Of a stretch of DNA of 64,000 nt, positions 17,039-53,656 are shown one piece after another (position 1 is the first letter of the stretch; each line of letters begins with the position of its first letter). The notes beneath the pieces were generated by a model, which saw nothing but the letters and a program-made list of their open reading frames with translations, was not told the DNA's origin and made no database searches. A program made the translations under genes and the position numbers. This DNA is from Roseateles puraquae (lineage in GTDB: Bacteria > Pseudomonadota > Gammaproteobacteria > Burkholderiales > Burkholderiaceae_C), in assembly GCF_002205845.1 (NCBI RefSeq), contig NZ_NISI01000001.1, positions 248,001 through 312,000 on the forward strand. Direction: 5' to 3'.

Positions 17039-17460
17039 GCGCGGTCAAGCACAAGGCGCTGGCGACATGGCTGGCGTTGCTGGTGGGCGTCTTCGGCGTC
17101 CATCGCTTCTACCTGCACGGCTTGAAAGACCGCTGGGGCTGGGCCTTCCCCCTGCCGACGCTGCTGGGGCTCGCGGGCCTGCAGCGCATGGAGCACCTCG
17201 GTCAGGATGACCGCGTGGCCTGGGTGCTGATCCCGTTGCTGGGCATCAGCCTCGTGGCGGCCCTGCTCGGCGGCATCGTCTATGGGCTCACGCCCGATGA
17301 ACGCTGGAACGAGCGCTTCAACGGGGGGCGTGCGGTGAGCATCGGCGGCTGGCCGGCCGTCATCGGCGTCGTGATCTGCCTGTTCATCGGCGGCACGGCG
17401 CTGATGGCGACCATCGCCTTCAGCGCCCAGCGGTACTTCGAGTCCCAGATCGATCAGTAG
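17035..17460 (+). CDS. TM2-like small membrane protein
   Basis: A 141-aa membrane protein whose N-terminal half (KALATWLALLVGVFGVHRFYLHG) resembles TM2-domain proteins, with glycine and His-Arg-Phe-Tyr spaced as in that family. Two to three further hydrophobic segments follow (about 62-85 and 105-128). Function unknown. It overlaps the acetyltransferase by 4 nt and so is translationally coupled to it. The 3' end overlaps the convergent pit gene by 7 nt. Confidence 0.75.
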   Translation: MSAVKHKALATWLALLVGVFGVHRFYLHGLKDRWGWAFPLPTLLGLAGLQRMEHLGQDDRVAWVLIPLLGISLVAALLGGIVYGLTPDERWNERFNGGRAVSIGGWPAVIGVVICLFIGGTALMATIAFSAQRYFESQIDQ

Positions 17461-18464
17461 AGCGCGAAGCTGATCCAGTAGCAGACGCCGGCCATCAGTG
17501 CGGCGGCCGGGATTGTGAAGATCCATGCCCACACGATGCTGCCGGCTACGCCCCAGCGCACGGCCGACGGCCGCTGCACCGAGCCCACGCCGACGATGGC
17601 GCCGGTGATGGTGTGCGTGGTCGACACCGGCACGCCCAGCGCCGTCGCGAGGAACAGCGTGATCGCCCCGCCCGTCTCGGCGCAGAACCCGCCCACCGGC
17701 TTGAGCTTGGTGATGCGCTGACCCATGGTCTGCACGATGCGCCAGCCCCCGAACATCGTGCCCAGGCCGATGGCGATGTAGCAGGCCACGATGACCCAGT
17801 TCGGCGGCGCCTTGTCGCCGGCGCTGACCATGCCAGCCGCGATCAGCAGCATCCAGATGAGGCCGATGGTCTTTTGCGCGTCATTGCCACCGTGGCCCAG
17901 GCTGTACAGGCCGGCCGAGACCAGCTGCAGCCGCCTGAACCAGCGGTCGATGCGAAGCGGCGACTTGTACCGGCACACCCAGGCCACGATCACCATCATC
18001 AGCGAGCCGAGCAGGTAGCCCAGCAGCGGCGAGATGACGATGAAGGCCACCGTCTTCCAGATGCCCCCGGCCACCAGCGCCGAAGGCCCGGCCTTGGCGA
18101 CCACAGCACCGGCGATGCCGCCGATCAGGGCGTGAGATGAGCTGGACGGAATGCCCCACCACCAGGTAATGGCGTTCCAGGCGATGGCACCGATCAGCGC
18201 GCCGAACACCACGTGGTGATCGACGATGCCCGGCTCGACGATGCCCTTGCCGATGGTAGCGGCCACCTTCAGCTGGAAGAAGGCGATGGCCAGCACGTTG
18301 AAGAAGGCGGCGAACAGCACGGCCTGCTGGGGCTTGAGCACCCCAGTGGACACGACGGTGGCGATGGAGTTGGCGGCGTCATGGAAGCCGTTCATGAAGT
18401 CGAACAGCAAGGCCAGCACGACGAGCAGGGCCACCACCCAGAAGGCGATCTCAGCGGATGCCAT
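17454..18464 (-). CDS. pit: Low-affinity inorganic phosphate transporter, Pit family
   Basis: A 336-aa inner-membrane carrier importing metal-phosphate with protons. Pit hallmarks: the duplicated motifs near each half, GFHDAANSIATVVSTGVL (about 25-42) and GVPVSTTHTITGAIVGVG (about 280-297), the WGIPSSSSHALIGG signature and GGNDAQKTIG. About ten hydrophobic segments. It lies 9 nt downstream of the DUF47/PhoU-like gene and forms the orfA-pit pair known from rhizobia. A triple 11-bp GTCAC repeat upstream of the pair suggests PhoB control. Confidence 0.95.
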   Translation of the reverse strand: MASAEIAFWVVALLVVLALLFDFMNGFHDAANSIATVVSTGVLKPQQAVLFAAFFNVLAIAFFQLKVAATIGKGIVEPGIVDHHVVFGALIGAIAWNAITWWWGIPSSSSHALIGGIAGAVVAKAGPSALVAGGIWKTVAFIVISPLLGYLLGSLMMVIVAWVCRYKSPLRIDRWFRRLQLVSAGLYSLGHGGNDAQKTIGLIWMLLIAAGMVSAGDKAPPNWVIVACYIAIGLGTMFGGWRIVQTMGQRITKLKPVGGFCAETGGAITLFLATALGVPVSTTHTITGAIVGVGSVQRPSAVRWGVAGSIVWAWIFTIPAAALMAGVCYWISFALY

Positions 18465-18473
18465 GGGGCTCGG

Positions 18474-19127
18474 TCAGGAGTTCTCGAGGACGATGCCCTC
18501 GATCAGGTTGGCCACGTCCTCGCAGCGGTCGGAGATGGACTCCAGTTGCTCGTAGATCGCCTTGAGCTTGATGAGCTCGCGCACATCCGCCTCTTCACGG
18601 AAGAGGCGCGACATCGCCGAGCGCATGACGCGGTCGGCATCGGATTCGAGCCGGTCGATCTCTTCGCAGGTCTTGAGCGCCGCTTCCGTGGTGGCAGGCT
18701 TGCTCAGGTTGGGCAGCAGCGTGACGGCGTGTTGCACACGCTCGCAGCAACGCACCGACAGCGTGGCCAGTTGCAGAACCTGCTCGGGCACGGCGCGCAC
18801 GTCGTAGAGCGACAAGGTCTCGGAGGAATCCTGCAGCAGGTCCAGGATGTCGTCCATCGCGTTGATCAGGCCGTGGATCTGCTCGCGGTCGATGGGCGTG
18901 ATGAAGGTGCGGTGCAGCAGGCGGTTGACCTCGGCCGTCACCCGGTCGGCGGCGTGCTCGGCCTTGTCGACCTCATCCGCGTACTGCTGGCGCAGCGTCG
19001 GGTCTGCGTAGTTTTCGATCATCTTCTGGAAGGCGCGCGCACCTTCCAGGATGAAGCCACCGTGCTCATTGAAGAGCTCAAAAAAATTGCCCTCACGGGG
19101 CAGCAGCTTGCCAAACAACATGGCCAT
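18474..19127 (-). CDS. DUF47 family PhoU-like phosphate transport regulator
   Basis: A 217-aa helical protein of the DUF47 (TIGR00153) family, related to PhoU and almost always encoded beside pit. It starts MAMLFGKLLPREGNFFELFNEHG and contains the helical bundle motifs EVDKAEHAADRVTAEVNRLLHRTFITPIDREQ (about 67-98), of which FITPIDREQIHGL is most typical, and a second half ending CEDVANLIEGIVLENS. It probably modulates Pit activity at the membrane. First gene of the pair; the ATG is at 19127, with a -10-like TAAACT at 19156-19151 on its strand. Confidence 0.92.
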   Translation of the reverse strand: MAMLFGKLLPREGNFFELFNEHGGFILEGARAFQKMIENYADPTLRQQYADEVDKAEHAADRVTAEVNRLLHRTFITPIDREQIHGLINAMDDILDLLQDSSETLSLYDVRAVPEQVLQLATLSVRCCERVQHAVTLLPNLSKPATTEAALKTCEEIDRLESDADRVMRSAMSRLFREEADVRELIKLKAIYEQLESISDRCEDVANLIEGIVLENS

Positions 19128-19150: not shown

Positions 19151-19192
19151 AGTTTACCGGGCTCTGTCACATCTTCGTCACAGCTCCGTCAC
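19151..19192 (-). promoter_or_regulatory. Triple GTCAC direct repeat (Pho-box layout, reversed) and -10 upstream of DUF47-pit
   Basis: GTCAC occurs on the plus strand at 19166-19170, 19177-19181 and 19188-19192, exactly 11 bp apart, preceded by CT, TC and CC. This is the spacing of PhoB half-sites. Relative to the minus-strand DUF47-pit pair the repeats are inverted. A minus-strand TAAACT (19156-19151) follows after 9 nt. In Sinorhizobium meliloti PhoB represses orfA-pit, so repression is a reasonable reading here; that is inference. Confidence 0.6.
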
Positions 19193-31456: not shown

Positions 31457-32056
31457 TCAGTCCACGCGACGGCGGCGAGCCAGCAGCAGCGCCGCGCCGC
31501 CAACCATCAGCGCCAGACTGCTCGGCTCCGGCACGGCGCTGATGTTGTCCAGTGCGACGCCGGCGGCTGTGCCAGTCAGGTCAAAGGACAGCGCGGTGCC
31601 GCTGAAGCTGAGGCTGGTGGAGGTCCAGGTCGTGTAGTCCGTGCCATTGGCCGCCAGCGTGACCGACCCCAACAGGCTGCCCGTGCCGTTCAGGCCGGAG
31701 TAGGCCTTGATCTCGACCGACGCGCCGGTGGGGTTGGAGAAGTAGAAGTTCAGCAGGCCGTCCACGCCGCCGGCCACGTTCATGTAGGCCGCCGTGTTGG
31801 TCACGCCATCCAGCTGCGCGTAGGCCACGCCGAGCGGCGACGGGGCGCCCGCGTAGTAGTCGCCGCCCGCGAGGCCACCCAGGCCGTCGCCATTGGACAG
31901 ACCCACCACATTGACGAAGCTGACGCCCTGGGCGGCGTAGAAGTTGTCGACCGTCTGGCCGTAGTCCCAGGTCTTCTCGAAGTCCACCAGGAAAGGGGAC
32001 GCTGCAAAAGCCGGCGAGGCCAGGCCGAGTGCCAGTGCGAGGGTGGCGAGCTTCAT
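31457..32056 (-). CDS. PEP-CTERM exported protein (first)
   Basis: A 199-aa secreted protein. Signal peptide MKLATLALALGLASPAFA, a beta-rich middle with NFYFSNPTGASVEIKAYSG and SFDLTGTAAGVALDNIS, and a C-terminal PEP-CTERM sorting signal: VPEPSSLALM, a hydrophobic stretch and the basic end RRRRVD. Exosortase normally cleaves such proteins at the outer surface; no exosortase gene is in this window. I start at the ATG at 32056 because the signal peptide begins there. The middle looks like a carbohydrate-binding or DUF642-like fold, but I cannot name the family. Confidence 0.85.
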   Translation of the reverse strand: MKLATLALALGLASPAFAASPFLVDFEKTWDYGQTVDNFYAAQGVSFVNVVGLSNGDGLGGLAGGDYYAGAPSPLGVAYAQLDGVTNTAAYMNVAGGVDGLLNFYFSNPTGASVEIKAYSGLNGTGSLLGSVTLAANGTDYTTWTSTSLSFSGTALSFDLTGTAAGVALDNISAVPEPSSLALMVGGAALLLARRRRVD

Positions 32057-32116
32057 CGAATGAACTCCAGAGCTTGAGGGTGGGGGCGGCAGGGCCGCTG
32101 CGTCTAAGTCGGCGCG

Positions 32117-32150
32117 AGTGTGGTGGGGGAAGACGACAGCCGCGTGACGC
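32117..32150 (-). promoter_or_regulatory. Degenerate Pho-box-like repeat upstream of the first PEP-CTERM gene
   Basis: On the minus strand GTCAC (32148-32144) and GTCGT (32137-32133) are 11 bp apart; 10 nt later comes CACACT (32122-32117), a poor -10. The second half-site is imperfect, so this is weaker than the repeats at the PHP and phytase-like genes. Confidence 0.35.
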
Positions 32151-32180
32151 TGATCGCTAGCCAGCCGCGCCGGCTGACCC

Positions 32181-32202
32181 ATGTCACCGGCCCGTCATCG
32201 GA
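32181..32202 (+). promoter_or_regulatory. Pho-box-like direct repeat upstream of the PCu(A)C-like gene
   Basis: GTCAC at 32183-32187 and GTCAT at 32194-32198, exactly 11 bp apart, end 54 nt before the ATG at 32252, similar to the 57 and 59 nt seen at the PHP and phytase-like genes. The hexamer 10 nt downstream (GAACGT) is not a good -10. Confidence 0.45.
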
Positions 32203-32251
32203 GGCTGCGAACGTCAGGCGCCTTCTTCACGCACCACCGCCCGGGCCGCCC

Positions 32252-32695
32252 ATGACCTCCCGCCGCCATCTGCTCCTTGCCGCCTGCAGCCTGCCGCTGG
32301 GTCTCTCCCGCCCCGTACAGGCCTGCGATTTCTTCAGCAGCCGTCTGCGCATCTGGCACCCCTGGACACGCGCGACGCGAGTCGATGCCGACAGCGCCAA
32401 GGTCTGCATGCGCTTTGATGAAGTGCGCGAGACCGACCGGCTGATCGGTGTCGAGACCCCCGTGGCTGGGGGGTGTCGACTGGCGGGGCCCGGCATCCCG
32501 CCGGACCGCGCCGGCCTGTCGCTGCTCATCAAACAGGGCGAGGAGATCACCCTCACCGAAGACGGCCTGCACATCGAACTGCTCGATCTCCAGCACCCGC
32601 TGCAAGTGGGGCGCTCCTTTGCGCTGCGCCTCATCTTCGAGTCGGCCGGTGCCGTCGAGACCGCGCTCAACGTCGACTACGCCGGCCCGCGATGA
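32252..32695 (+). CDS. PCu(A)C/DUF461-like exported protein with altered metal site
   Basis: A 147-aa exported protein. The N-terminus MTSRRHLLLAACSLPLG looks like a Tat or lipoprotein signal (twin arginine, LAAC). The remainder follows the PCu(A)C copper-chaperone pattern: IWHPWTRATRVDADSAKVCM, ETDRLIGVETPVAGG, DGLHIELLDLQHPLQVG and LIFESAGAVETALNV. The ligands of classical PCu(A)C are not kept: HxM is HxE here, and the methionine-rich first loop is missing. It may bind another metal or have lost metal binding. ATG at 32252 is supported by the signal peptide. It stands 107 nt before the PHP gene. Confidence 0.7.
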   Translation: MTSRRHLLLAACSLPLGLSRPVQACDFFSSRLRIWHPWTRATRVDADSAKVCMRFDEVRETDRLIGVETPVAGGCRLAGPGIPPDRAGLSLLIKQGEEITLTEDGLHIELLDLQHPLQVGRSFALRLIFESAGAVETALNVDYAGPR

Positions 32696-32728
32696 GCCTT
32701 CGGCAAGCGGCGCATGCGCCGTGATTCC

Positions 32729-32762
32729 GCGTCACGGCAAGGTCATGACCCGTCCCTAGCAT
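32729..32762 (+). promoter_or_regulatory. Pho-box-type promoter of the PHP-domain gene
   Basis: GTCAC at 32731-32735 and GTCAT at 32742-32746 form an 11-bp direct repeat. Exactly 10 nt later TAGCAT (32757-32762) stands as -10. This copies the geometry of E. coli phoA, where the PhoB box replaces the -35. The start codon follows at 32803. Confidence 0.6.
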
Positions 32763-32802
32763 CCGCCGCGTTCAAGCCCCCCTCACCTCTGGAGCTGCCT
32801 TC

Positions 32803-35073
32803 ATGAAGACCGTGTTCACCAAGAGCCAGATCGCGCTGGCCGCCCTCGCTGCGATCAGCAGCGTGGCCGTCATCGCCCCGACCATCGCGACGGCCGGCAA
32901 CAAGACGCCCGGCAAGTACGTCTCTGGCGACTTCCACAACCACACCACCTGCTCGGACGGTTCGATCTCCATGCAGAAGCTGGTCAAGAAGTCCACCGAC
33001 AAGGCCGACACGCCCTGGGGGCTGGACTGGTTCGTGCAGGCTGGCCACGGCGGCACCGGCAACCGCAACTGCACGCTGGTGGAAGACGCTTCGCTGTCCA
33101 CGCCGGCCTACCCCTTCGTCAGCGGCCAGGGCCCGACGACGACCTGGACCAACAGCATCGGTGCGGCCAACCTCAAGGGCAATGGCGGCGGCGTGGGTGG
33201 CAACGGCAACATGTGGCGCTGGCAATCCATCCAGGAGTACCAGTACCCGGTGATGGAGTACCTGAACGCACAGAAGAACCTGCCGCTGTTCATCGGCCTG
33301 GAGTCGGTGGTGGCCGGCCATGAGCACACCTCCATGTCCGTCATCACGGGCCAGATCCCGCAAGCCCTGGACAACGCCACGCTGCCCACCAGCGCCGGCT
33401 ACGTGGCCCTGGGCAATGCCAACGCGCTGGCGCAGTGGTCCTACTGCTTCGATCGTGGCGACACCGACACCAGCCGCGGCAACACCACCGGCACGAGCAC
33501 CGGCAACAACTGGAACTGCGCCGTGCCGGGCAGCGCCAACAGCGCCGACGTGAGCTGGAACAGCACCGCCCAGAAGCTGATGCCCAGCGGCAGCGGCGTG
33601 GGCTCGGGCGTGGGCACCAAGGGCCACCTGAAGACGCTGGAAGCGCTCAAGTGGATGAAGCAGTACCACCCCAATGGCAGCTACTACATCCCCGCCCACC
33701 TGGAGCGTGCCGGCCCCTTCAATCCCGACGGCAACAACGGCTTCAACGTCGAGCACCTGCGCAACTTCAACAACACCGCGCCGGACATCGCGTTCGGCTT
33801 CGAGACCCAGCCGGGCCACGGCGCCTCCGCCGAGCGCGGCGAGTACCGCCAACTGCGCAACGGCTTCACCGGCTCGGCCACCAATGTGGACTCGGTGGGC
33901 GGTACGACCTACGGCGGCACGGGCGTCTACGGCGCGCTCGTCGGCGGCGTGTGGGACGCGCTGCTGGGTGAAGGCCGCAACTGGTGGTTCTTCGCGAGCT
34001 CCGACTGGCACAACCGCGGCAGCTTCGGCCCCGATGACCGCCGCTCCACGCAAGACTTCTACCCGGGTGAATACCAGCGCACCCATGTGCTCGTTCGCAA
34101 CGGCGGCGACAAGCTGCGCCCGCAGACCATCGTTGACGGCCTGCGCAGCGGCAACGCCTGGGCGGCCAGCGGCCAACTGATCGACCGCTTCGCCATGGTG
34201 GCCTGCGCCTCCTATGCCGGCCCGGCTGGGCGCAGCAATGCCGCCGTCGAAGCCCTGGCCGTGGCCGCCGCCTCGAACGCCACCGACGTGGATGCCACCG
34301 GCTGCGCCACCATGGGCCAGAAGCTCGTCGTGCGCCCGGGCGCCGAGATCGTGGTCAGCATCGCGCTGCGCGACCCGGCTGGCACCAACTACGCGCCCTA
34401 CAGCTTCCCCAATCCCTCGCTGCTGCAGGTCGGCATCAACCGCCCGATCAACCAGCCCGTGCTGGACCACGTCGACCTGATCCGCGGCATGGTGTCGGGC
34501 TACCGCCAGCCCGGCGCACCTGACTACGCCGGTGAATGGCCGCGCAACACCGACTGGCTGAAGGCCGACGGCACGACTGCCGGCCTCTCGGCCGTGCCGG
34601 CTGCCGCCAAGAACACCACGGCCAGCGTCATCCGCACCTTCAGCGCCAATGGCAGCGCGCCGTGGGTGCAGGTGCAGTCGGGTGTGGACGGCACCGGGTT
34701 CCTGAAGATGACCTACCGCATCCCGGCCGTGCAGGCGTCGCAGTACGTCCGCGTGCGGGGCAGCAACCTGCCCGCCGCCGTGCCCTACGAGACCGATGCC
34801 AGCGGTAACCCGCTGTCCGATCTCTACACCAACGCCACCGTCACGGCCAACCTGCGCATTCCCTGCACGACCGTGGGCACCAACGTGCCGGCCACCGGCG
34901 TGACCTGGTCGCAGAGCAACGGGCCGATCGACGGCTGCCCCAGCCACCTGCCGGTGGTGAACGGCCAGAAGATGGTGGCCTACGACGTGGCGGCCTGGTC
35001 TGACCTCTGGTTCTACAGCAACCCGATCTACGTCGAGGTCAGCGGCTCCACGCTGGTCGCCGGCGTCAAGTAA
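32803..35073 (+). CDS. Secreted PHP-domain metallohydrolase (DUF3604-like)
   Basis: A 756-aa exported protein with a Sec signal peptide (1-31). The mature N-terminus is a PHP domain with metal ligands in family order: HxH at 45/47 (GDFHNHTTCSDGS), H82 where PHP proteins have the DH pair (here GH), E167 (FIGLES), H175, H299 (PAHLERAG) and D401/H403 (SSDWHNRG). PHP enzymes are metal-dependent phosphoesterases. The inserts between the ligands are long and Gly/Asn/Ser-rich, and residues about 480-756 form a separate beta-rich region of unknown kind. A Pho-box-type promoter precedes the gene and a 13-bp hairpin follows it. I propose an extracellular or periplasmic phosphoesterase; the substrate is unknown and a protease-like or structural role is not excluded. 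Confidence 0.75.
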   Translation: MKTVFTKSQIALAALAAISSVAVIAPTIATAGNKTPGKYVSGDFHNHTTCSDGSISMQKLVKKSTDKADTPWGLDWFVQAGHGGTGNRNCTLVEDASLSTPAYPFVSGQGPTTTWTNSIGAANLKGNGGGVGGNGNMWRWQSIQEYQYPVMEYLNAQKNLPLFIGLESVVAGHEHTSMSVITGQIPQALDNATLPTSAGYVALGNANALAQWSYCFDRGDTDTSRGNTTGTSTGNNWNCAVPGSANSADVSWNSTAQKLMPSGSGVGSGVGTKGHLKTLEALKWMKQYHPNGSYYIPAHLERAGPFNPDGNNGFNVEHLRNFNNTAPDIAFGFETQPGHGASAERGEYRQLRNGFTGSATNVDSVGGTTYGGTGVYGALVGGVWDALLGEGRNWWFFASSDWHNRGSFGPDDRRSTQDFYPGEYQRTHVLVRNGGDKLRPQTIVDGLRSGNAWAASGQLIDRFAMVACASYAGPAGRSNAAVEALAVAAASNATDVDATGCATMGQKLVVRPGAEIVVSIALRDPAGTNYAPYSFPNPSLLQVGINRPINQPVLDHVDLIRGMVSGYRQPGAPDYAGEWPRNTDWLKADGTTAGLSAVPAAAKNTTASVIRTFSANGSAPWVQVQSGVDGTGFLKMTYRIPAVQASQYVRVRGSNLPAAVPYETDASGNPLSDLYTNATVTANLRIPCTTVGTNVPATGVTWSQSNGPIDGCPSHLPVVNGQKMVAYDVAAWSDLWFYSNPIYVEVSGSTLVAGVK

Positions 35074-35118
35074 GGCCAGCTTCGCGCGGCGCCACGCGCT
35101 GCGCGGGAGCCTCACCCG

Positions 35119-35148
35119 ACGGGGTGCCGTGGCGACACGGCACCCCGT
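35119..35148 (+). terminator. Strong hairpin after the PHP-domain gene
   Basis: A perfect 13-bp stem (35119-35131 with 35136-35148) on a GCGA tetraloop, followed by CGTCCTTGCTTG, only moderately T-rich. It probably ends or weakens transcription between the PHP gene and the PpiC operon. Confidence 0.65.
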
Positions 35149-35159
35149 CGTCCTTGCTT

Positions 35160-35191
35160 GTCGTCGTTCTGTCTTGCAGCCTCACTAGCAT
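35160..35191 (+). promoter_or_regulatory. Weak Pho-box-like promoter of the PpiC-HupE operon
   Basis: GTCGT at 35160-35164 and GTCTT at 35171-35175 are 11 bp apart, and TAGCAT at 35186-35191 follows after exactly 10 nt. Both half-sites deviate from GTCAC/T, but the -10 and its surroundings (CTAGCATCCG) are identical to those of the PHP gene promoter. Confidence 0.4.
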
Positions 35192-35218
35192 CCGGCGCTT
35201 GCGCTTCGCCCTGCCGCC

Positions 35219-36073
35219 ATGTCCACCCCGCTGCCCATCCGCCACGACCTCACCACGCCGACCTCCCGCCGCCTGCCTGGCTGGGCCCGCGAGCCGCTGT
35301 TGCATTTCCTGCTGATCGGTGCGGTGCTCTTTGGTGCAGACCACCTCATCAACGGCCGCCAAGGCGACAACCGCCTGATCGTCGTGGGCAACGATGTCAC
35401 GCAGGAAGCCATCGCCACCTTCCAGGCCGCCCGCGGCCGGGCGCCTGATGCCAACGAGCTCAAGGCCCTGCAGCAGGTCTGGCTGGACAACGAGGTGCTC
35501 TACCGCGAGGGCCTGGCCCTGCAACTCGACAAAGGCGACAGCGCCATCCGCGAGCGGCTGATCTTCAAGGCGCTCAGCATGGTTGACAGCGGCGTGAAGC
35601 TGCCCCCCATCGACGACGCCGGCCTGCAGGCCTGGTTCGAGAAGAACCGCGTGAAGTACGACAGCCCTGCCCGCTACGACTTCCAGGAAGCCGTGCTCGA
35701 CGGCGTGGCCGATGAAGCCGCCGTGCGCAGCTTCGTCAGCGCCCTGAACGGCGGCCTGCCGGGCGATGCCAAGGCCGGCCTGCGCGTGTTCAAGGGCCGC
35801 CCTCACCTCAATCTGGTGCAAAGCTATGGCGAAGATTTCGCCAAGGCCCTGGAGGCTGCCCCGCCGGGCCAGTGGCTGGCCCTGAAGAGCAAGGACGGCT
35901 GGCGCGCCGTGCGCATGGAGGCTGTCACGCCCGCCCAGCCGGCGCAGTTCGCCGCCGTGCGCAATGCGGTACAGCAGGACTGGACCGACGCGACGATGGC
36001 CGAACAACGCAGCGCCGCCGTGGCCGCCCTGGCGCGCAAGTACACCATCCAGGTCGAGGAAGCCAAGCCATGA
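35219..36073 (+). CDS. Membrane-anchored PpiC/SurA-type peptidyl-prolyl isomerase
   Basis: A 284-aa protein with one N-terminal transmembrane anchor (about 24-45, LLHFLLIGAVLFGADHLI) and a periplasmic part resembling the parvulin-like foldases annotated as PpiC-type: VWLDNEVLYREGLALQLDKGD, an AWFEKNRVKYDSPARYDFQEAVL segment and a C-terminal helix. The parvulin catalytic residues are not evident, so it may work mainly as a chaperone. ATG at 35219; the stop overlaps the HupE gene by 4 nt. This PpiC-HupE order recurs beside PHP/DUF3604 genes in other bacteria, as far as I recall. Confidence 0.75.
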   Translation: MSTPLPIRHDLTTPTSRRLPGWAREPLLHFLLIGAVLFGADHLINGRQGDNRLIVVGNDVTQEAIATFQAARGRAPDANELKALQQVWLDNEVLYREGLALQLDKGDSAIRERLIFKALSMVDSGVKLPPIDDAGLQAWFEKNRVKYDSPARYDFQEAVLDGVADEAAVRSFVSALNGGLPGDAKAGLRVFKGRPHLNLVQSYGEDFAKALEAAPPGQWLALKSKDGWRAVRMEAVTPAQPAQFAAVRNAVQQDWTDATMAEQRSAAVAALARKYTIQVEEAKP

Positions 36074-37032
36074 GCCGCTGGATGCGCGGCTTGCGGCGGT
36101 GCTGGCTCGCCCTGCTGCTGGGCATGCTCACCGTGCCTGCCCTGGCGCATGAGATGAGCATGGCCGAGATGCAGCTGCGGGAAGTCGCCCCGGGCGATTT
36201 CCTGTGGCAGTGGGGCCCCAGCGAGAAGTACCCGCCGGGCCAGGTGCTGCGGCTGCAATGGCCCGAGGGCTGCACGGCCGATGCCACCCACGTGCGCTGC
36301 GGCGAACACGGCCTTGCCGGGCGTGTCAGCGTTGAGGGTGTCGGCGAGTTCTTCTCAGCCGTGCTCGTGAAGGTCAACTGGCGCGATGGCCAGACGCGCG
36401 TCTACACCCTCACCAAGGCGCAGCCGTCCGTGCAGCTCTACGGTGCCGCCAGCGACCCGCGCGGCATGGGCGAGATTGCTGCGGCCTACACCCTGCTGGG
36501 CGTCGAGCACATCCTGGGCGGCATCGACCACCTGCTGTTCGTCATCGGCCTGCTCTTCCTGGTGGGCTTCCAGCGCCGGCTGATCTGGACCATCACCGCC
36601 TTCACCGCCGCCCACAGCCTCACGCTGGCCAGCAGCGCGCTCGGCTGGCTCACGCTGCGCTCAGCGCCGGTGGAGGCCACCATCGCGCTGTCCATCGTGC
36701 TGGTCGCCGGCGAGGCGCTGCATCGCCGCCAGACGCTCGCGCGACGCTGGCCGGCGGTCGTGGCCTTCCTGTTCGGCCTGGTGCATGGCCTGGGCTTTGC
36801 GGGTGCGCTGCAGGAGATCGGGCTGCCCGAGAACCATCTGCTTGTCGCGCTGCTGACCTTCAACGTGGGCGTGGAGGTCGGCCAGCTCTGCACCGTCGGG
36901 CTCTGCTGGGCGCTGTGGCGGCTGACGAGCCGCTGGCCAGCGGTGCAGCAGCTGCGCACCGCACTGCTGTACGGGATTGGCGGCATCGCTGCGTACTGGT
37001 CGTGGCTGCGCATCGCGGCCGTGCTGGCTTGA
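36070..37032 (+). CDS. HupE/UreJ-type membrane protein, putative metal permease
   Basis: A 320-aa membrane protein: signal peptide (1-26, ending ALAHE), an exported beta-rich domain (about 27-130) and a HupE/UreJ_2 membrane domain (about 135-320). Histidine motifs of the family are present: GVEHILGGIDHLLFVIGLLF, FTAAHSLTLASS and FGLVHGLGFAGALQEIG. Relatives are proposed nickel or cobalt transporters, but this subgroup is not characterised. ATG at 36070 overlaps the PpiC stop (ATGA). Placed next to a metalloenzyme gene, metal supply is a sensible but unproven role. Confidence 0.82.
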   Translation: MSRWMRGLRRCWLALLLGMLTVPALAHEMSMAEMQLREVAPGDFLWQWGPSEKYPPGQVLRLQWPEGCTADATHVRCGEHGLAGRVSVEGVGEFFSAVLVKVNWRDGQTRVYTLTKAQPSVQLYGAASDPRGMGEIAAAYTLLGVEHILGGIDHLLFVIGLLFLVGFQRRLIWTITAFTAAHSLTLASSALGWLTLRSAPVEATIALSIVLVAGEALHRRQTLARRWPAVVAFLFGLVHGLGFAGALQEIGLPENHLLVALLTFNVGVEVGQLCTVGLCWALWRLTSRWPAVQQLRTALLYGIGGIAAYWSWLRIAAVLA

Positions 37033-37042
37033 GGAGGCGGTG

Positions 37043-37669
37043 GTGAAGGACGAAGTCTTCGGCCTCTTTCCCGTGCCGGTCATGCGCTGCCCGGGCGTGC
37101 TGCCGCCGCCGCTGGTGCAGGCCCTGGCCGAGCACTTCAGCCGCCAGGCGCAGCAGCCCAACAACAGCTCTGAGGGCCTGTCCCACACCCGCATGCTGAC
37201 GCCCGCGGACAGCCCGCTGCTGGTAGATGCCGCGGCGCTGATCACGCCCAAGATCGCCGAGTTCGGCCAGCTGCTCTTTGGTGAAGCGCTGGGCTGGGCC
37301 ATCAAGGAGATGTGGGTCAACGTGCTGGACACCGGCGGCCGCCAGGCCATGCACAACCACGCCAACAGCTTCGCGTCGGGCGTGGTCTACCTGACCGAGT
37401 CCGACGACTCGGCCCGCACCGTGTTCATGAAGTCGCCCGGCGGGCACGATTTCTCCCTCAAGAACGACCACGCCGGTGTCGTGACCGGCCCCTACAACGC
37501 CGAGAAGTGGATCAGCCCGTCGCCCAGCCCTGGCGACCTGGTGCTCTTCCCGAGCTATTTGATGCATGCCGTACCGCCCAATGCGGGTGGCCGTCGCATC
37601 ACCATGGCCTTGAACGCCATCCCCACCCGACTGGAGAGCTGGGGTTACGCCCTGAGCTTCAACGGCTGA
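37043..37669 (+). CDS. Putative 2OG-Fe(II) oxygenase (TIGR02466-like)
   Basis: A 208-aa cytoplasmic protein matching the putative 2-oxoglutarate/iron oxygenases of TIGR02466. Visible: EVFGLFPVPVMRCPG, WVNVLDTGGRQAMHNHANSF with the first iron-binding histidines, SGVVYLTESDDSARTVF, and PGDLVLFPSYLMHAVPPN with the distal histidine followed by R-x-T (GRRITMALNA) for 2-oxoglutarate. The substrate is unknown. The start is a GTG; GAGGAGG at 37031-37037 sits 5 nt ahead of the second of two consecutive GTG codons (37043). It lies 10 nt after the HupE gene and 1 nt before the next gene. Confidence 0.78.
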   Translation: MKDEVFGLFPVPVMRCPGVLPPPLVQALAEHFSRQAQQPNNSSEGLSHTRMLTPADSPLLVDAAALITPKIAEFGQLLFGEALGWAIKEMWVNVLDTGGRQAMHNHANSFASGVVYLTESDDSARTVFMKSPGGHDFSLKNDHAGVVTGPYNAEKWISPSPSPGDLVLFPSYLMHAVPPNAGGRRITMALNAIPTRLESWGYALSFNG

Positions 37670-37670
37670 A

Positions 37671-40121
37671 GTGAAGCAGCCTCTGGCCCTGCTGCTGATG
37701 GCGGCCTCCGGGTTTGCCGGGCTGGGCTATCAGATCGTCTGGACACAGCAGTTCGGCCTCGCCCTCGGGCACGAAACGGCCGCGGTGCTGGCGGTGGTGG
37801 CGGCCTTCTTCGGCGGCCTCTCGCTGGGTGCGCTGGCTCTGGGGCGGCGCATCGAGGCCAGTGGCCGGCCGCTGGCCTGGTATGCGGGCTGCGAGGCAGT
37901 CATCGGTCTGTGGGGCGGCGTGCTGATGCTGAGCCTTCCGGCTGCCAGCCAGGCCGTGCTGGCGCTGATCGGGCCCGAGGCCTCCCCGGCCTGGCACTGG
38001 ACCGTGGCCTTCGGCGCGAGCCTGTTGCTCCTGCTGCCGGCCACCGCTGCCATGGGCGCCACCCTGCCCGCCATGGCACGGCTGAGCACGGCCGGCCTGT
38101 CACCCCTGTATGCCGCCAACACCGCCGGGGCGGTCGCCGGCGTGCTGGTGACGGCACTGCTGCTGGTGCCCGCCTGGGGGCTGTCGCGCAGCACGGCGCT
38201 TTGCGTGGGGCTCAACCTGCTCTGCGCGCTCGGTGCGCCCGCTTTGCTGGCGGCGCGCCCTGCCGACACGGCGGCCACGCCGTCCTCAGGCCGTCCCCTC
38301 GTTCTGCTGGCTGTCACCGGCCTGCTGGGCATCGCCTACGAGGTGCTGTGCGTCCGCGTGCTCAGCCAGGTCCTGGAAGACACCGTCTACACCTTCGCCC
38401 TGCTGTTGGCCGTCTACCTCGCGGGCACCGCCGCGGGCGCCGCGGCCCATGCGCGCTCGCCTCGACTGCACCAGACACCCGCGCTGCTGCAGGCGCTTGC
38501 CACCAGCGTGCTGCTGGGCATGGGCGTGCTGTGGGGCGCCGACCTCCTGAAGCACAGCCTGCAACCGCTGCTGCCCGCCACGCTCGGCGGCGCGCTGGCC
38601 CTGGAGAGCCTGCTGGCACTGGCGGTGTTTGGTCTGCCGACCGCCTTGATGGGCGCCCTCTTCTGCCAGCTCAGTGCCGAAGCCCAGGCCGCGCGCCAGC
38701 CTTTCAGTCGTGCACTCGGCGTCAACACCCTCGGTGCCATGGCTGCCGCGCCGCTCTTTGGTGTGGCGTTGGCCGCCAGCCTCGGGCCCAAGGGCGCGCT
38801 GCTGATGGTCGCTGCCGGCTATCTGCTGCTGCAGCCATGCTGGCGGGACTGGCGCTGGCGGCTGCCCACCGTCGCCACCTTGGCCATTGCCGCATGGGCG
38901 CCGCCCATGGCCTTCGTCGAGGTCCCCGACGGTGGCCGGCTGCTGAGCTATCGCGATGGCGCCATGGCCGCCGTCAGCGTGGTGCAGGACGCCGACGGCG
39001 TCGCCCGGCTGCGCATCAACAACCGGCAGCAAGAAGGCAGCAGCGCCACCCAGCATGTCGACGGTCGCCAGGCCCTGCTGCCGCTGATGCTGCATGGCGA
39101 GCCACGGCGGGCCTTGTTCCTCGGCGTCGGCGCCGGCATCACCTCGGGCGTGGCGGCCCGCTGGCCCGGCGTGCAGGCCGACGCGGTGGAGCTGCTGCCT
39201 GAAGTCATCGAAGCCACCGCGCTCTTCCGGCCGGCCCTCGGCGCCGGCCCGGGCCCGCACGTCATCAACGCCGACGCCCGCCGCTTTGTGCGTACCGCGC
39301 CCACCCGCTACGACGTGATCGTGGCCGACAACTTTCACCCGGCCCGCAGCGGGTCGGCCGCGCTCTACACCGTCGAGCACTTCCGCGCCGTGCGGCAGCG
39401 GCTGAACCCGCAGGGCGTCTTCTGCCAGTGGCTGCCCCTGCACCAGCTGGATCTCGACACCCTGCGCGGCATCACGGCGAGCTTCCTCGCGGCCTACCCC
39501 GACGGCGTGGCCATCCTCGCGAGCCACAGCCTCGACACCCCCACCCTCGGCCTGGTCGGCCGCACTGGCCCGACGCAGTTCGCCATGCCCCCGCGGAGCG
39601 CGCTGGGCGCCCGCTTCGGCCTGGGCGAGCCCATGGCCGTGCTCGGCAGCCTGGTGGGCGACAACACGTCGCTGAGGCGCTTCGCTGCGGCCACGGCGCC
39701 CAACACCGACGACCGCCCTTGGGTCGCCTACCGCGCCCCACGGATCACGTATGTCCCTAACACGTCCCCCCGCGACCGGCTGATGGCGCTGCTCGGGCAG
39801 CTCAACCTGGACGACGGGCACTGGCTCGCGCCCGCCCATGCCGCCGATGCCGCCCTGGTCTCCCGCGTGCAGGCCTATGCCCGGGCGCGCCAGCACTACC
39901 TTGACCTGGGCCGCCGCACGGTGCCGAGCGCCGACCCGGCCGTGATGCTCGCACGCGTCGGCCCCGGGCTGCTCGCCGTGCTGCAGCAAAGCCCGGACTT
40001 CGAGCCGGCTGCCGAGCCGCTGCGGCGACTCGCGCAAGCCCTGGCCCCGGTCGACCCGGCAGCGGCCGAGCAGCTGCGGGCTGAGCTCGCGACCGTCCGT
40101 CCCCCGAAGGACGCCCGCTGA
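37671..40121 (+). CDS. Membrane-fused spermidine synthase-like protein
   Basis: An 816-aa fusion. The first half (about 1-410) has 10-12 hydrophobic segments of the kind annotated as fused MFS/spermidine synthase, beginning ASGFAGLGYQIVWTQQFGL. The second half carries a spermidine-synthase-like Rossmann domain (about 430-680): GRQALLPLMLHGEPRRALFLGVGAG, VELLPEVIEA, NADARRFVRTAPTRYDVIVADNF and CQWLPLHQLDLDTL. The last 130 residues are helical. True aminopropyl transfer is not established for such fusions. It begins at a GTG (37671) 1 nt after the oxygenase stop, the fourth gene of this operon. Confidence 0.82.
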   Translation: MKQPLALLLMAASGFAGLGYQIVWTQQFGLALGHETAAVLAVVAAFFGGLSLGALALGRRIEASGRPLAWYAGCEAVIGLWGGVLMLSLPAASQAVLALIGPEASPAWHWTVAFGASLLLLLPATAAMGATLPAMARLSTAGLSPLYAANTAGAVAGVLVTALLLVPAWGLSRSTALCVGLNLLCALGAPALLAARPADTAATPSSGRPLVLLAVTGLLGIAYEVLCVRVLSQVLEDTVYTFALLLAVYLAGTAAGAAAHARSPRLHQTPALLQALATSVLLGMGVLWGADLLKHSLQPLLPATLGGALALESLLALAVFGLPTALMGALFCQLSAEAQAARQPFSRALGVNTLGAMAAAPLFGVALAASLGPKGALLMVAAGYLLLQPCWRDWRWRLPTVATLAIAAWAPPMAFVEVPDGGRLLSYRDGAMAAVSVVQDADGVARLRINNRQQEGSSATQHVDGRQALLPLMLHGEPRRALFLGVGAGITSGVAARWPGVQADAVELLPEVIEATALFRPALGAGPGPHVINADARRFVRTAPTRYDVIVADNFHPARSGSAALYTVEHFRAVRQRLNPQGVFCQWLPLHQLDLDTLRGITASFLAAYPDGVAILASHSLDTPTLGLVGRTGPTQFAMPPRSALGARFGLGEPMAVLGSLVGDNTSLRRFAAATAPNTDDRPWVAYRAPRITYVPNTSPRDRLMALLGQLNLDDGHWLAPAHAADAALVSRVQAYARARQHYLDLGRRTVPSADPAVMLARVGPGLLAVLQQSPDFEPAAEPLRRLAQALAPVDPAAAEQLRAELATVRPPKDAR

Positions 40122-43204: not shown

Positions 43205-43222
43205 GTGACGAGCAGGTGACGA
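43205..43222 (-). promoter_or_regulatory. Pho-box-like repeat between the second PEP-CTERM gene and the TPR gene
   Basis: On the minus strand TCGTCAC occurs twice, with GTCAC at 43220-43216 and 43209-43205, exactly 11 bp apart. The end lies 55 nt before the PEP-CTERM ATG, the same distance as in the PHP and phytase-like promoters. No good -10 follows after 10 nt. The repeat is also only 10 nt upstream of the divergent TPR start. Confidence 0.4.
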
Positions 43223-52116: not shown

Positions 52117-52150
52117 CCGTCACGGATGTGTCACGCCCGCTTTCTAGCCT
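52117..52150 (+). promoter_or_regulatory. Pho-box-type promoter of the phytase-like gene
   Basis: GTCAC at 52119-52123 and 52130-52134 are exactly 11 bp apart; TAGCCT (52145-52150) follows after exactly 10 nt. The arrangement is the same as upstream of the PHP gene and of E. coli phoA. The ATG follows at 52193. Confidence 0.65.
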
Positions 52151-52192
52151 CCGAGGTTGATTTGCCCGCGCATCAACCCGTCCGGAGGCTTC

Positions 52193-53656
52193 ATGTTTTT
52201 TCGACCCGCCCTTTTTGCACTGACGGCACTGGCCAGCGCCTCGGCCATGGCCGCCACCTCGGTCAGCAACGTCAGCTTCGTCAACGGCATCGCCATCTCG
52301 GGCGCCCTGCTCGACCTGTCCACCGGCAGCGACTTCGATCGCCGCATCGGCTTTTTCTCGGACATCTACTACGACCGCACCCGCAATGAATGGTGGGGCC
52401 TGTCTGACCGCGGCCCGGGCGGCGGCGTGCTGCCTTACGAGACGCGCGTGCAGCGCTTCACGATCGACATCAACCCGGTGTCCGGCGCGATCTCCAACTT
52501 CCAGATCGTGCAGACCGTGAAGTTCACCGAAGCGGGTGTGGCGCTCAACGGCCAGGCCCCGGCCATCGCGAATGTGCTGGGCAAGTCTTTCGACCCCGAA
52601 GGCATCGTCGTCAACCCGGTGACCGGCAATCTGCTGGTCAGCGACGAGTACGGCCCCTCGGTCTACGAGTTCAACCGCAGCGGTGAGCTGCTGCGCAAGT
52701 TCACGACGCCGGCCAACCTCGTGCCGCACACCGCCTCGGGCACCGACTACAACGCGCTGGCACCCGCGGGAAGCTCGCCCCAACTCGTGGGCGGCCGCGA
52801 GGGCAACCGCGGCCTCGAAGCGCTGGCCATCACGCCGGACGGCCGTTACGCCTTCGCCGTGCTGCAAAACGGCACCGTCACCGACGGCTACAACGCCAGC
52901 AGCGGCACGCGCGGGCAGTACACACGCATCGTCAAGTACGACATCCAGACCGGCCAAGCCGTCGGCCAGTACGCCTATCAGCTCGCCAGCTCGGGCCAGG
53001 GGCGCGGCATTTCGGCGCTGGTCGCCATCGACGCGAACCGCTTCCTGATCCTGGAGCGCAACAACCGGGGCATCGGCGTCGGTGCCACCCTCAGTGGTGC
53101 TGACAAGAACGTCTTCGAAGTCGACCTCAGCAGCGCCAGCGACGTGAGCGGCCTCAACCTGCCGGCCAGCGGCGCCCTGCCGACCGGCATCAACGCGGCC
53201 GCCAAGAGCGCACAGATCATGGATCTGGACGCCAACACCTTGGCCGCACTGGGCAACAAGTCACCTGAGAAGTGGGAAGGGCTGGCCATCGGCCCGCAGC
53301 TCGCCAATGGCAAGTACGTCATCCTGGCCGGCACCGACAACGACTACAGCGTCACCCAGAACGGCTCGAACACACAGTTCGACGTCTACTTCCGCATGAC
53401 CGACGGCGACCCTTACGCCTCGTCCATCCAGTGCCCGGTGGGCCTCACGACCGGCTGCTTCGCCACGGCCACCTCGGCCAGCGCGACGCTGACCTCGGAC
53501 TATCAATTGCTGCCCGGCGTGCTGCACAGCTATACCGCAGACATCGCCGGTTATGTGTCGGCCGTGCCGGAGCCGCACACCTACGCGATGTTGCTGGCCG
53601 GGCTGGGCCTGGTCTCGGTCGCGCGTCGGTCGGCACGCCGCGGCGAGCGACGCTGA
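52193..53656 (+). CDS. Esterase-like phytase-domain PEP-CTERM protein
   Basis: A 487-aa exported protein with a signal peptide (about 1-20, ending AMA). The main part (about 35-420) is the esterase-like activity of phytase family (PF13449): FFSDIYYDRTRNEWWGLSDRGPGGG, SFDPEGIVVNPVTGNLLVSDEYGPSVYEF, NRGLEALAITPDGRYAFAVLQ and KWEGLAIGPQL, a beta-propeller with conserved acidic residues. The C-terminus VPEPHTYAMLLAGLGLV plus RRSARRGERR is a PEP-CTERM signal for surface sorting. It probably releases phosphate from phytate-like esters outside the cell, in line with its Pho-type promoter. GGAGG stands 6 nt before the ATG at 52193. Confidence 0.88.
   Translation: MFFRPALFALTALASASAMAATSVSNVSFVNGIAISGALLDLSTGSDFDRRIGFFSDIYYDRTRNEWWGLSDRGPGGGVLPYETRVQRFTIDINPVSGAISNFQIVQTVKFTEAGVALNGQAPAIANVLGKSFDPEGIVVNPVTGNLLVSDEYGPSVYEFNRSGELLRKFTTPANLVPHTASGTDYNALAPAGSSPQLVGGREGNRGLEALAITPDGRYAFAVLQNGTVTDGYNASSGTRGQYTRIVKYDIQTGQAVGQYAYQLASSGQGRGISALVAIDANRFLILERNNRGIGVGATLSGADKNVFEVDLSSASDVSGLNLPASGALPTGINAAAKSAQIMDLDANTLAALGNKSPEKWEGLAIGPQLANGKYVILAGTDNDYSVTQNGSNTQFDVYFRMTDGDPYASSIQCPVGLTTGCFATATSASATLTSDYQLLPGVLHSYTADIAGYVSAVPEPHTYAMLLAGLGLVSVARRSARRGERR

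Follow-up and report, generated by a model that had tools for sequence, protein, structure and literature searches.

Which regulator would act on the pair of repeats that precedes the gene at 32803..35073 (plus strand), and what might the exported protein encoded there contribute when phosphate is scarce? The gene lies in a 64-kb stretch of Roseateles puraquae DNA, hereafter the window, and the initial annotation had assigned it a promoter of the PhoB type and a secreted product with a PHP domain, conceivably representing a further class of phosphatase. Here, we follow these assignments through the genomes and contigs of relatives.

Geometry of the promoter

The first putative PhoB half-site, GTCAC, occupies positions 32731..32735 of the plus strand, and the second, GTCAT, positions 32742..32746, starting 11 bp past the first; 10 nt farther on lies a -10-like hexamer, TAGCAT (32757-32762), which together with a conserved extension (TAGCATCCGC) covers 32757..32766 on the same strand. 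Thus, direct reading of the letters of the window bore out the repeat, the spacing, and the hexamer described previously. Across 14 aligned orthologous promoters, GTCAC and TAGCAT are invariant, as is the GTCA of the second half-site, the last base of which is C or T in 13 of the 14. The likeness to Escherichia coli phoA that had been pointed out is equally real: the K-12 promoter reads GTCAT-6-GTCAC-10-TATAGT, i.e., two GTCAY half-sites 11 bp apart followed, after 10 nt, by the -10 hexamer. The two promoters differ in that the spacers at 32803 are G+C-rich and the -10 is TAGCAT; furthermore, the gene downstream is unrelated to PhoA.

In the excerpted text of PMC3131613, the Pho box consensus consists of CTGTCAT half-sites with an A/T-rich 4-nt spacer. 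The full form is not found at 32803, where the sequence reads CGTCAC GGCA AGGTCAT, with the GTCAY core retained and both the CT and the A/T-rich spacer absent; in the pstS promoters of the same genus, the CT ahead of GTCAY is likewise mostly missing. The -10 stands about 10 nt past the second half-site with no -35 needed, which is the arrangement of a PhoB-activated promoter. A generic sigma-70 scan of 31500-35500 returned zero promoters, as expected where half-sites stand in for the -35, and an ordinary sigma-70 promoter was rejected on the strength of that empty scan.

The GTCAYN6GTCAY pattern occurs 6 times in the window, compared with a mean of 0.30 in shuffled sequence (0 of 100 shuffles reach 6), and 38 times in the whole genome, compared with 13 for a reversed control pattern, so that about one third of the genomic matches to this short pattern alone is noise. 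The repeat is, therefore, enriched in the window and in the genome, yet nonspecific when taken by itself.

Conservation ahead of orthologous genes

The protein was matched in 22 of 120 genomes, its own included, with 18 full-length matches, 1 split over two contigs (G061), and 3 weak ones. Had the repeat been confined to this locus, the reading as a PhoB promoter would have lost its footing; instead, it was recovered by pattern in 15 of the 18 upstream regions of full-length orthologues, the exceptions being GTCAC-6-GTCAA (L047), a single half-site with TAGTAT (L043), and neither element (L046). Among 11 sequences of the genus, averaging the identity over columns gives 1.00 and 0.91 for the two half-sites and 1.00 for the -10, compared with 0.62 for both flanks.

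A broader set comprised named contigs carrying the best 80 of 194 relatives, 78 of which have 400 bp of upstream sequence (L110 and L137 were dropped). A model derived from the PHP promoters themselves (R1), with 150 of 9024 candidates scored, failed to place the pstS promoter among its 17 matches in the genome of the window, and hence the matrix was trained on pstS sites instead. This core matrix, built from 13 pstS promoters only, was applied with thresholds set on 4762 control windows taken at these same loci (99% level, 11.16), which are conservative given that the controls include some genuine boxes of neighbouring genes. Upstream of the PHP gene, 54 of the 78 regions exceed the 99th percentile and 29 the 99.9th, compared with 4 and 0 on the reverse strand; the remaining 24 fall under the 99% threshold, and 40 pass with the full matrix, in which the spacers are included. 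With the proteins grouped at 80% identity, 29 of the 48 usable clusters score positive, compared with 3 on the reverse strand. The scan of homologous upstream regions with a PhoB matrix, which had been proposed as a check, thus returned a conserved repeat. On the named contigs, the box is separated from the point where the protein match begins by about 70 to more than 200 bases. One contig labelled as a Methylotenera MAG (L104) is probably mislabelled: its PHP protein and that of the window are 99% identical, and the next best matches are of Roseateles type.

Given that the short repeat alone carries a genome-wide background of about one third, chance could be invoked for the pair at 32803. 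The numbers leave this explanation a negligible probability: the strict repeat was seen in 36 of the 78 upstream regions of 400 bp, compared with about 0.1 expected from its density in the genome of the window, and the composite pattern considered below has 0 control matches. Together with the shuffles, none of which equalled the observed count, this led us to reject a chance repeat.

An architecture shared with pstS

When both half-sites and the -10 were combined into one composite pattern, 24 sites were found in 21 genomes and 0 with the reversed control; 11 of these sites lie ahead of pstS, 7 ahead of the PHP gene, and 6 elsewhere. In the genome of the window, the composite pattern occurs twice, only at pstS and at the 32803 gene (control, 0). 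Judging from the first residues, the 6 sites elsewhere include two ahead of ppk-like genes (L207 and L196), one ahead of a phytase-like gene as in the window (L206), two ahead of fasciclin-type lipoprotein genes (L194 and L204), and one ahead of a carboxypeptidase-regulatory or TonB-linked-like gene (L186).

The main, highest-scoring pstS is preceded by GTCAY-6-GTCAY-10-TAGGAT or a close form in all 14 genomes, in 12 of them by the strict pattern (L066 included) and in 2 with TTCAC as the first half-site (L063 and L070), and TAGGAT occupies the same position there as TAGCAT does at 32803. For 14 further, lower-scoring pstS matches (L083 and 13 others, with little upstream sequence in the case of L073), no Pho box was detected by pattern. 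The 32803 promoter and the pstS promoter of the same genus agree in the half-sites, the spacing, the CC ahead of the -10, and the TAGNAT hexamer, but differ in spacer sequence and in distance, the pstS promoter being farther from its gene.

A single protein encoded in the genome of the window scores above the curated PhoB cut-off (339.5 versus 296.2 bits), and its gene and pstS share a strand, about 3.5 kb apart. The same model gives 130 matches at E <= 0.001, including this single one above the cut-off, so that PhoB-like regulators are numerous in this genome; considering also that the spacers at 32803 differ from those at pstS, the repeats might be bound by another OmpR-type regulator with an 11-bp spacing. 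Against such a regulator, the full architecture, including the -10, is common to pstS, and the composite pattern retrieves mainly pstS and the PHP gene; we regard this alternative as highly improbable. The PhoB-type reading of the promoter, by contrast, is very probably correct as far as sequence comparison can tell: its architecture is that of pstS and is kept ahead of orthologues. The predicted promoter is well supported, and chance is excluded as its source.

Several other sites of this kind came to light around pstS and beyond. In two genomes (G005 and G011), pstS is flanked divergently by a fasciclin-like lipoprotein gene (L194 and L204) that has a composite Pho promoter to itself; in the genome of the window, a Pho-like box scoring 19.4 occupies the matching place (L278, position 6788). 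At another locus (L277, G000:C37:420000-430500), a Pho-like box with a core score of 16.9 precedes a type II secretion operon with a gspG-like first gene; another, scoring 21.7, belongs to a divergent subtilase-like gene (names assigned by reading).

A predicted exported protein with PHP-type ligands

The 32803 gene is an open frame for 756 aa, predicted from the N-terminus, cysteines, and ligands to encode an exported metallohydrolase of the PHP superfamily. Residues 1-31, approximately, form an apparent Sec signal (read by eye), and eight cysteines are invariant in 47 aligned sequences, as expected for an oxidised exported protein. The PHP-type ligands, assigned by motif order, are H45, H47, D52, H82, E167, H173/H175, H299, D401, and H403; the series HxH, D, H, E, H, H, DxH is kept in order and is invariant across seven sequences, down to 30% identity, and the relatives at 30-33% identity (L050, L051, and L055) retain all assigned ligands.

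Profile searches add little to this picture. The protein matches no Pfam family at E <= 0.01; the PHP model (PF02811) does not match it and reaches only 3 of 47 relatives at E <= 1 (best, 0.28). Pfam and PDB sequence searches with the protein, the alignment, and distant relatives gave no meaningful match and no solved relative. The models for PhoA, PhoX, and PhoD (PF00245, PF05787, and PF09423) leave the protein unmatched, and the DUF3604 model (PF12228) matches neither it nor any other protein in the genome of the window; by reading of motifs, DUF3604 proteins resemble it in being exported, in having the motifs HxH and DxH, and in ending with a TSPIWY-like sequence. When its profile was compared with those of CehA-type and DUF3604 alignments, nothing significant emerged, the alignments being too shallow (Neff about 2) for the result to be informative. 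Thus, the initial description of an exported PHP-domain protein with most ligands in place stands as regards the ligands, the set being complete and conserved, but finds no counterpart in the Pfam PHP family. On the signal and the ligands, the protein is very probably an exported enzyme of the PHP superfamily.

The nearest named relative by model is CehA/McbA (NF038032), which shares PHP-superfamily motifs and is matched weakly, at E <= 0.01, by 47 of the 47 aligned members. CehA enzymes are carbamate hydrolases, and hence phosphatase activity of the 32803 protein is not to be assumed: under PhoB control, it could hydrolyse some other bond under phosphate limitation, for example, in envelope remodelling or chelator release. 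This we consider unlikely. The match, at 35.9 bits, is far under the curated cut-off of 80, and of the 315 profile positions its best stretch spans only 159-244; two relatives at 30-33% identity that were scanned also remain below the cut-off, at 64.6 and 56.5 bits. Moreover, an exported enzyme that belongs to the Pho regulon is usually a phosphoesterase. Homologues were found in 20 plasmid records, annotated as phosphoesterase in 7 (23-30% identity) and as histidinol-phosphatase in 1.

Neighbouring genes and other Pho-like sites in the window

The four genes described next, downstream of the PHP gene, lie on the plus strand. The first is a PPIC-type peptidyl-prolyl isomerase gene (35219..36073; PF13145), preceded by a variant Pho-like promoter, GTCGT-6-GTCTT-10-TAGCAT (35160..35191, plus strand; core score, 14.7), followed by genes for a HupE/UreJ-type membrane protein (36070..37032; PF13795), a 2OG-Fe(II) oxygenase-like protein of uncertain start (36977..37669; PF13759), and a membrane protein with a spermidine-synthase-like domain (37671..40121; PF01564). 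On the other side are genes for a PCu(A)C copper-chaperone-like protein (32252..32695, plus strand; PF04314) and, divergently, a PEP-CTERM protein (31457..32056, minus strand; PF07589). Only three boxes in the window score above 11.16, those of the PHP gene (31.8), a phytase-like gene (18.0), and the isomerase gene; the boxes of the PCu(A)C gene (a Pho-like repeat at 32183-32198, 6.7) and the PEP-CTERM gene (6.5) are under this threshold. The isomerase promoter uses the variant half-sites GTCGT and GTCTT, and a form of this kind is seen at 9 of 29 loci inspected.

In a survey of the window and 80 contigs (81 records), homologues of the isomerase were matched in 79, of the spermidine-synthase-like protein in 72, of a TonB receptor in 15, and of nikR in 1. 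On the contigs, homologues with enough upstream sequence numbered 74 for HupE, 73 for the oxygenase, 57 for PEP-CTERM, and 43 for PCu(A)C. Boxes over threshold within 350 bp upstream were found for 54/78 PHP, 13/78 isomerase, 3/13 TonB receptor, 2/68 spermidine-synthase-like, and 0/74 HupE genes, and for 13/57 PEP-CTERM, 12/43 PCu(A)C, and 2/73 oxygenase genes, the last three counts being blurred by divergent neighbours (20, 7, and 12, respectively, on the reverse strand).

A homologue with 47.5% identity on a Comamonadaceae plasmid (CP099604.1; L292) adjoins nikR and a TonB receptor gene and precedes spermidine synthase, isomerase, and HupE genes, and no Pho box above threshold was found at it. 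A homologue beside nikR and without a Pho box implies that metals may be a theme of the island, the nikR and TonB genes hinting at a link to nickel or another metal, and that PhoB control may be confined to one large clade. Taken further, the island, with its HupE, PCu(A)C, isomerase, and, at some loci, TonB receptor genes, could serve mainly in metal acquisition, with the PHP enzyme freeing a metal or making a ligand and PhoB control being secondary and limited to some lineages. This is improbable, considering that nikR accompanies the gene in a single surveyed record and that HupE never has a Pho box of its own, as against more than two-thirds of the PHP genes.

Elsewhere in the window, three GTCAC units spaced 11 bp apart (19166-19192) point away from the genes just downstream, a pair comprising PhoU_div (18474-19127, minus strand) and PHO4/Pit (17454-18464, minus strand). 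This site retains two or more units with 11-bp spacing in 11 of 14 genomes, inverted in 8 and in gene orientation in 3. According to the excerpted text of PMC3131613, PhoB represses orfA-pit in Sinorhizobium meliloti, and the array would fit an analogous repression of the PhoU_div-pit pair. A second full Pho-type promoter, GTCAC-6-GTCAC-10-TAGCCT (52119-52150, plus strand), stands ahead of the gene for a phytase-like PEP-CTERM protein (52190-53656, plus strand; PF13449); the similar gene with the composite promoter (L206) is in G005. Finally, a GTCAC repeat with 11-bp spacing and no good -10 (43205-43220, minus strand) lies upstream of a gene whose 267-aa product begins with a signal-like sequence.

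Other phosphatases of the same genomes

At E <= 1e-20, the genome of the window encodes no PhoX, two PhoD, and one PhoA. The PhoD and PhoA genes are textbook Pho targets elsewhere. In the stretches fetched for these genes in the genome of the window (L275, L276, and L279), no box exceeds the threshold, the best core score being 8.1 versus 11.16; in related genomes, one of 6 PhoD stretches (G008) scores 13.5, and the other PhoD and all 5 PhoA stretches score 9.8 or less. These stretches represent part of the genes of the genus with limited upstream sequence, so that distant operon promoters could be missed. PhoX is present in 1 of 14 genomes of the genus with the PHP gene compared with 3 of 6 without it (Fisher p 0.061), and in 4 of 19 compared with 52 of 101 among the 120 genomes (p 0.022), in statistics that ignore relatedness, score G061, with its split gene, among the carriers, and leave out weak matches to PhoX (G001, G044, and G118) and to PHP (G039, G041, and G095). 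As a sign that the PHP enzyme replaces PhoX, these counts are suggestive only.

A candidate phosphate-scavenging enzyme

The explanation that we favour is that the 32803 gene encodes a PhoB-activated, exported, PHP-type phosphoesterase that scavenges phosphate, a reading that we consider likely as a whole. Under low phosphate, phosphorylated PhoB would probably bind the half-sites starting at 32731 and 32742, which take the place of a -35, and, as happens at phoA and pstS, recruit sigma-70 polymerase to the TAGCAT -10, so that the 32803 gene would be transcribed. Its product would be exported by Sec, form up to four disulfides, and be loaded with a PHP-type metal cluster; the enzyme would then probably hydrolyse a phosphorus-containing ester outside the cytoplasm, and the freed phosphate would be imported by PstSCAB.

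In this proposed role of exported phosphate scavenging, the enzyme would stand alongside the alkaline phosphatases PhoA, PhoX, PhoD, PafA, and Psip1, all of which belong to other families. These five are treated in the excerpted text of PMC8812569, in which no word starts with "PHP", and likewise in that of PMC11098088. A phrase search for PHP enzymes in phosphate starvation, which covers titles and the beginnings of abstracts of open-licence papers and may miss other wordings, found nothing on point. It is plausible, judging from the gene and its promoter, that the 32803 protein represents a further class of starvation phosphatase, as had been surmised. More tentatively, exported PHP-type enzymes in general may form an unrecognised class of PhoB-controlled extracellular phosphoesterases that, rather than PhoA, PhoD, or PhoX, would supply a main phosphatase of the Pho regulon in Roseateles-type bacteria, at the core of a dedicated Pho island with its own peptidyl-prolyl isomerase, metal-handling proteins, TonB receptor, and surface protein.

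The genes counted in surveys of organic-phosphorus turnover are ones such as phoA, phoX, phoD, and pafA. If PHP-type enzymes carry out phosphate scavenging in common freshwater and soil Burkholderiales, such gene counts would miss part of the capacity, and exported PHP proteins of a family without a name in Pfam would gain a physiological role.
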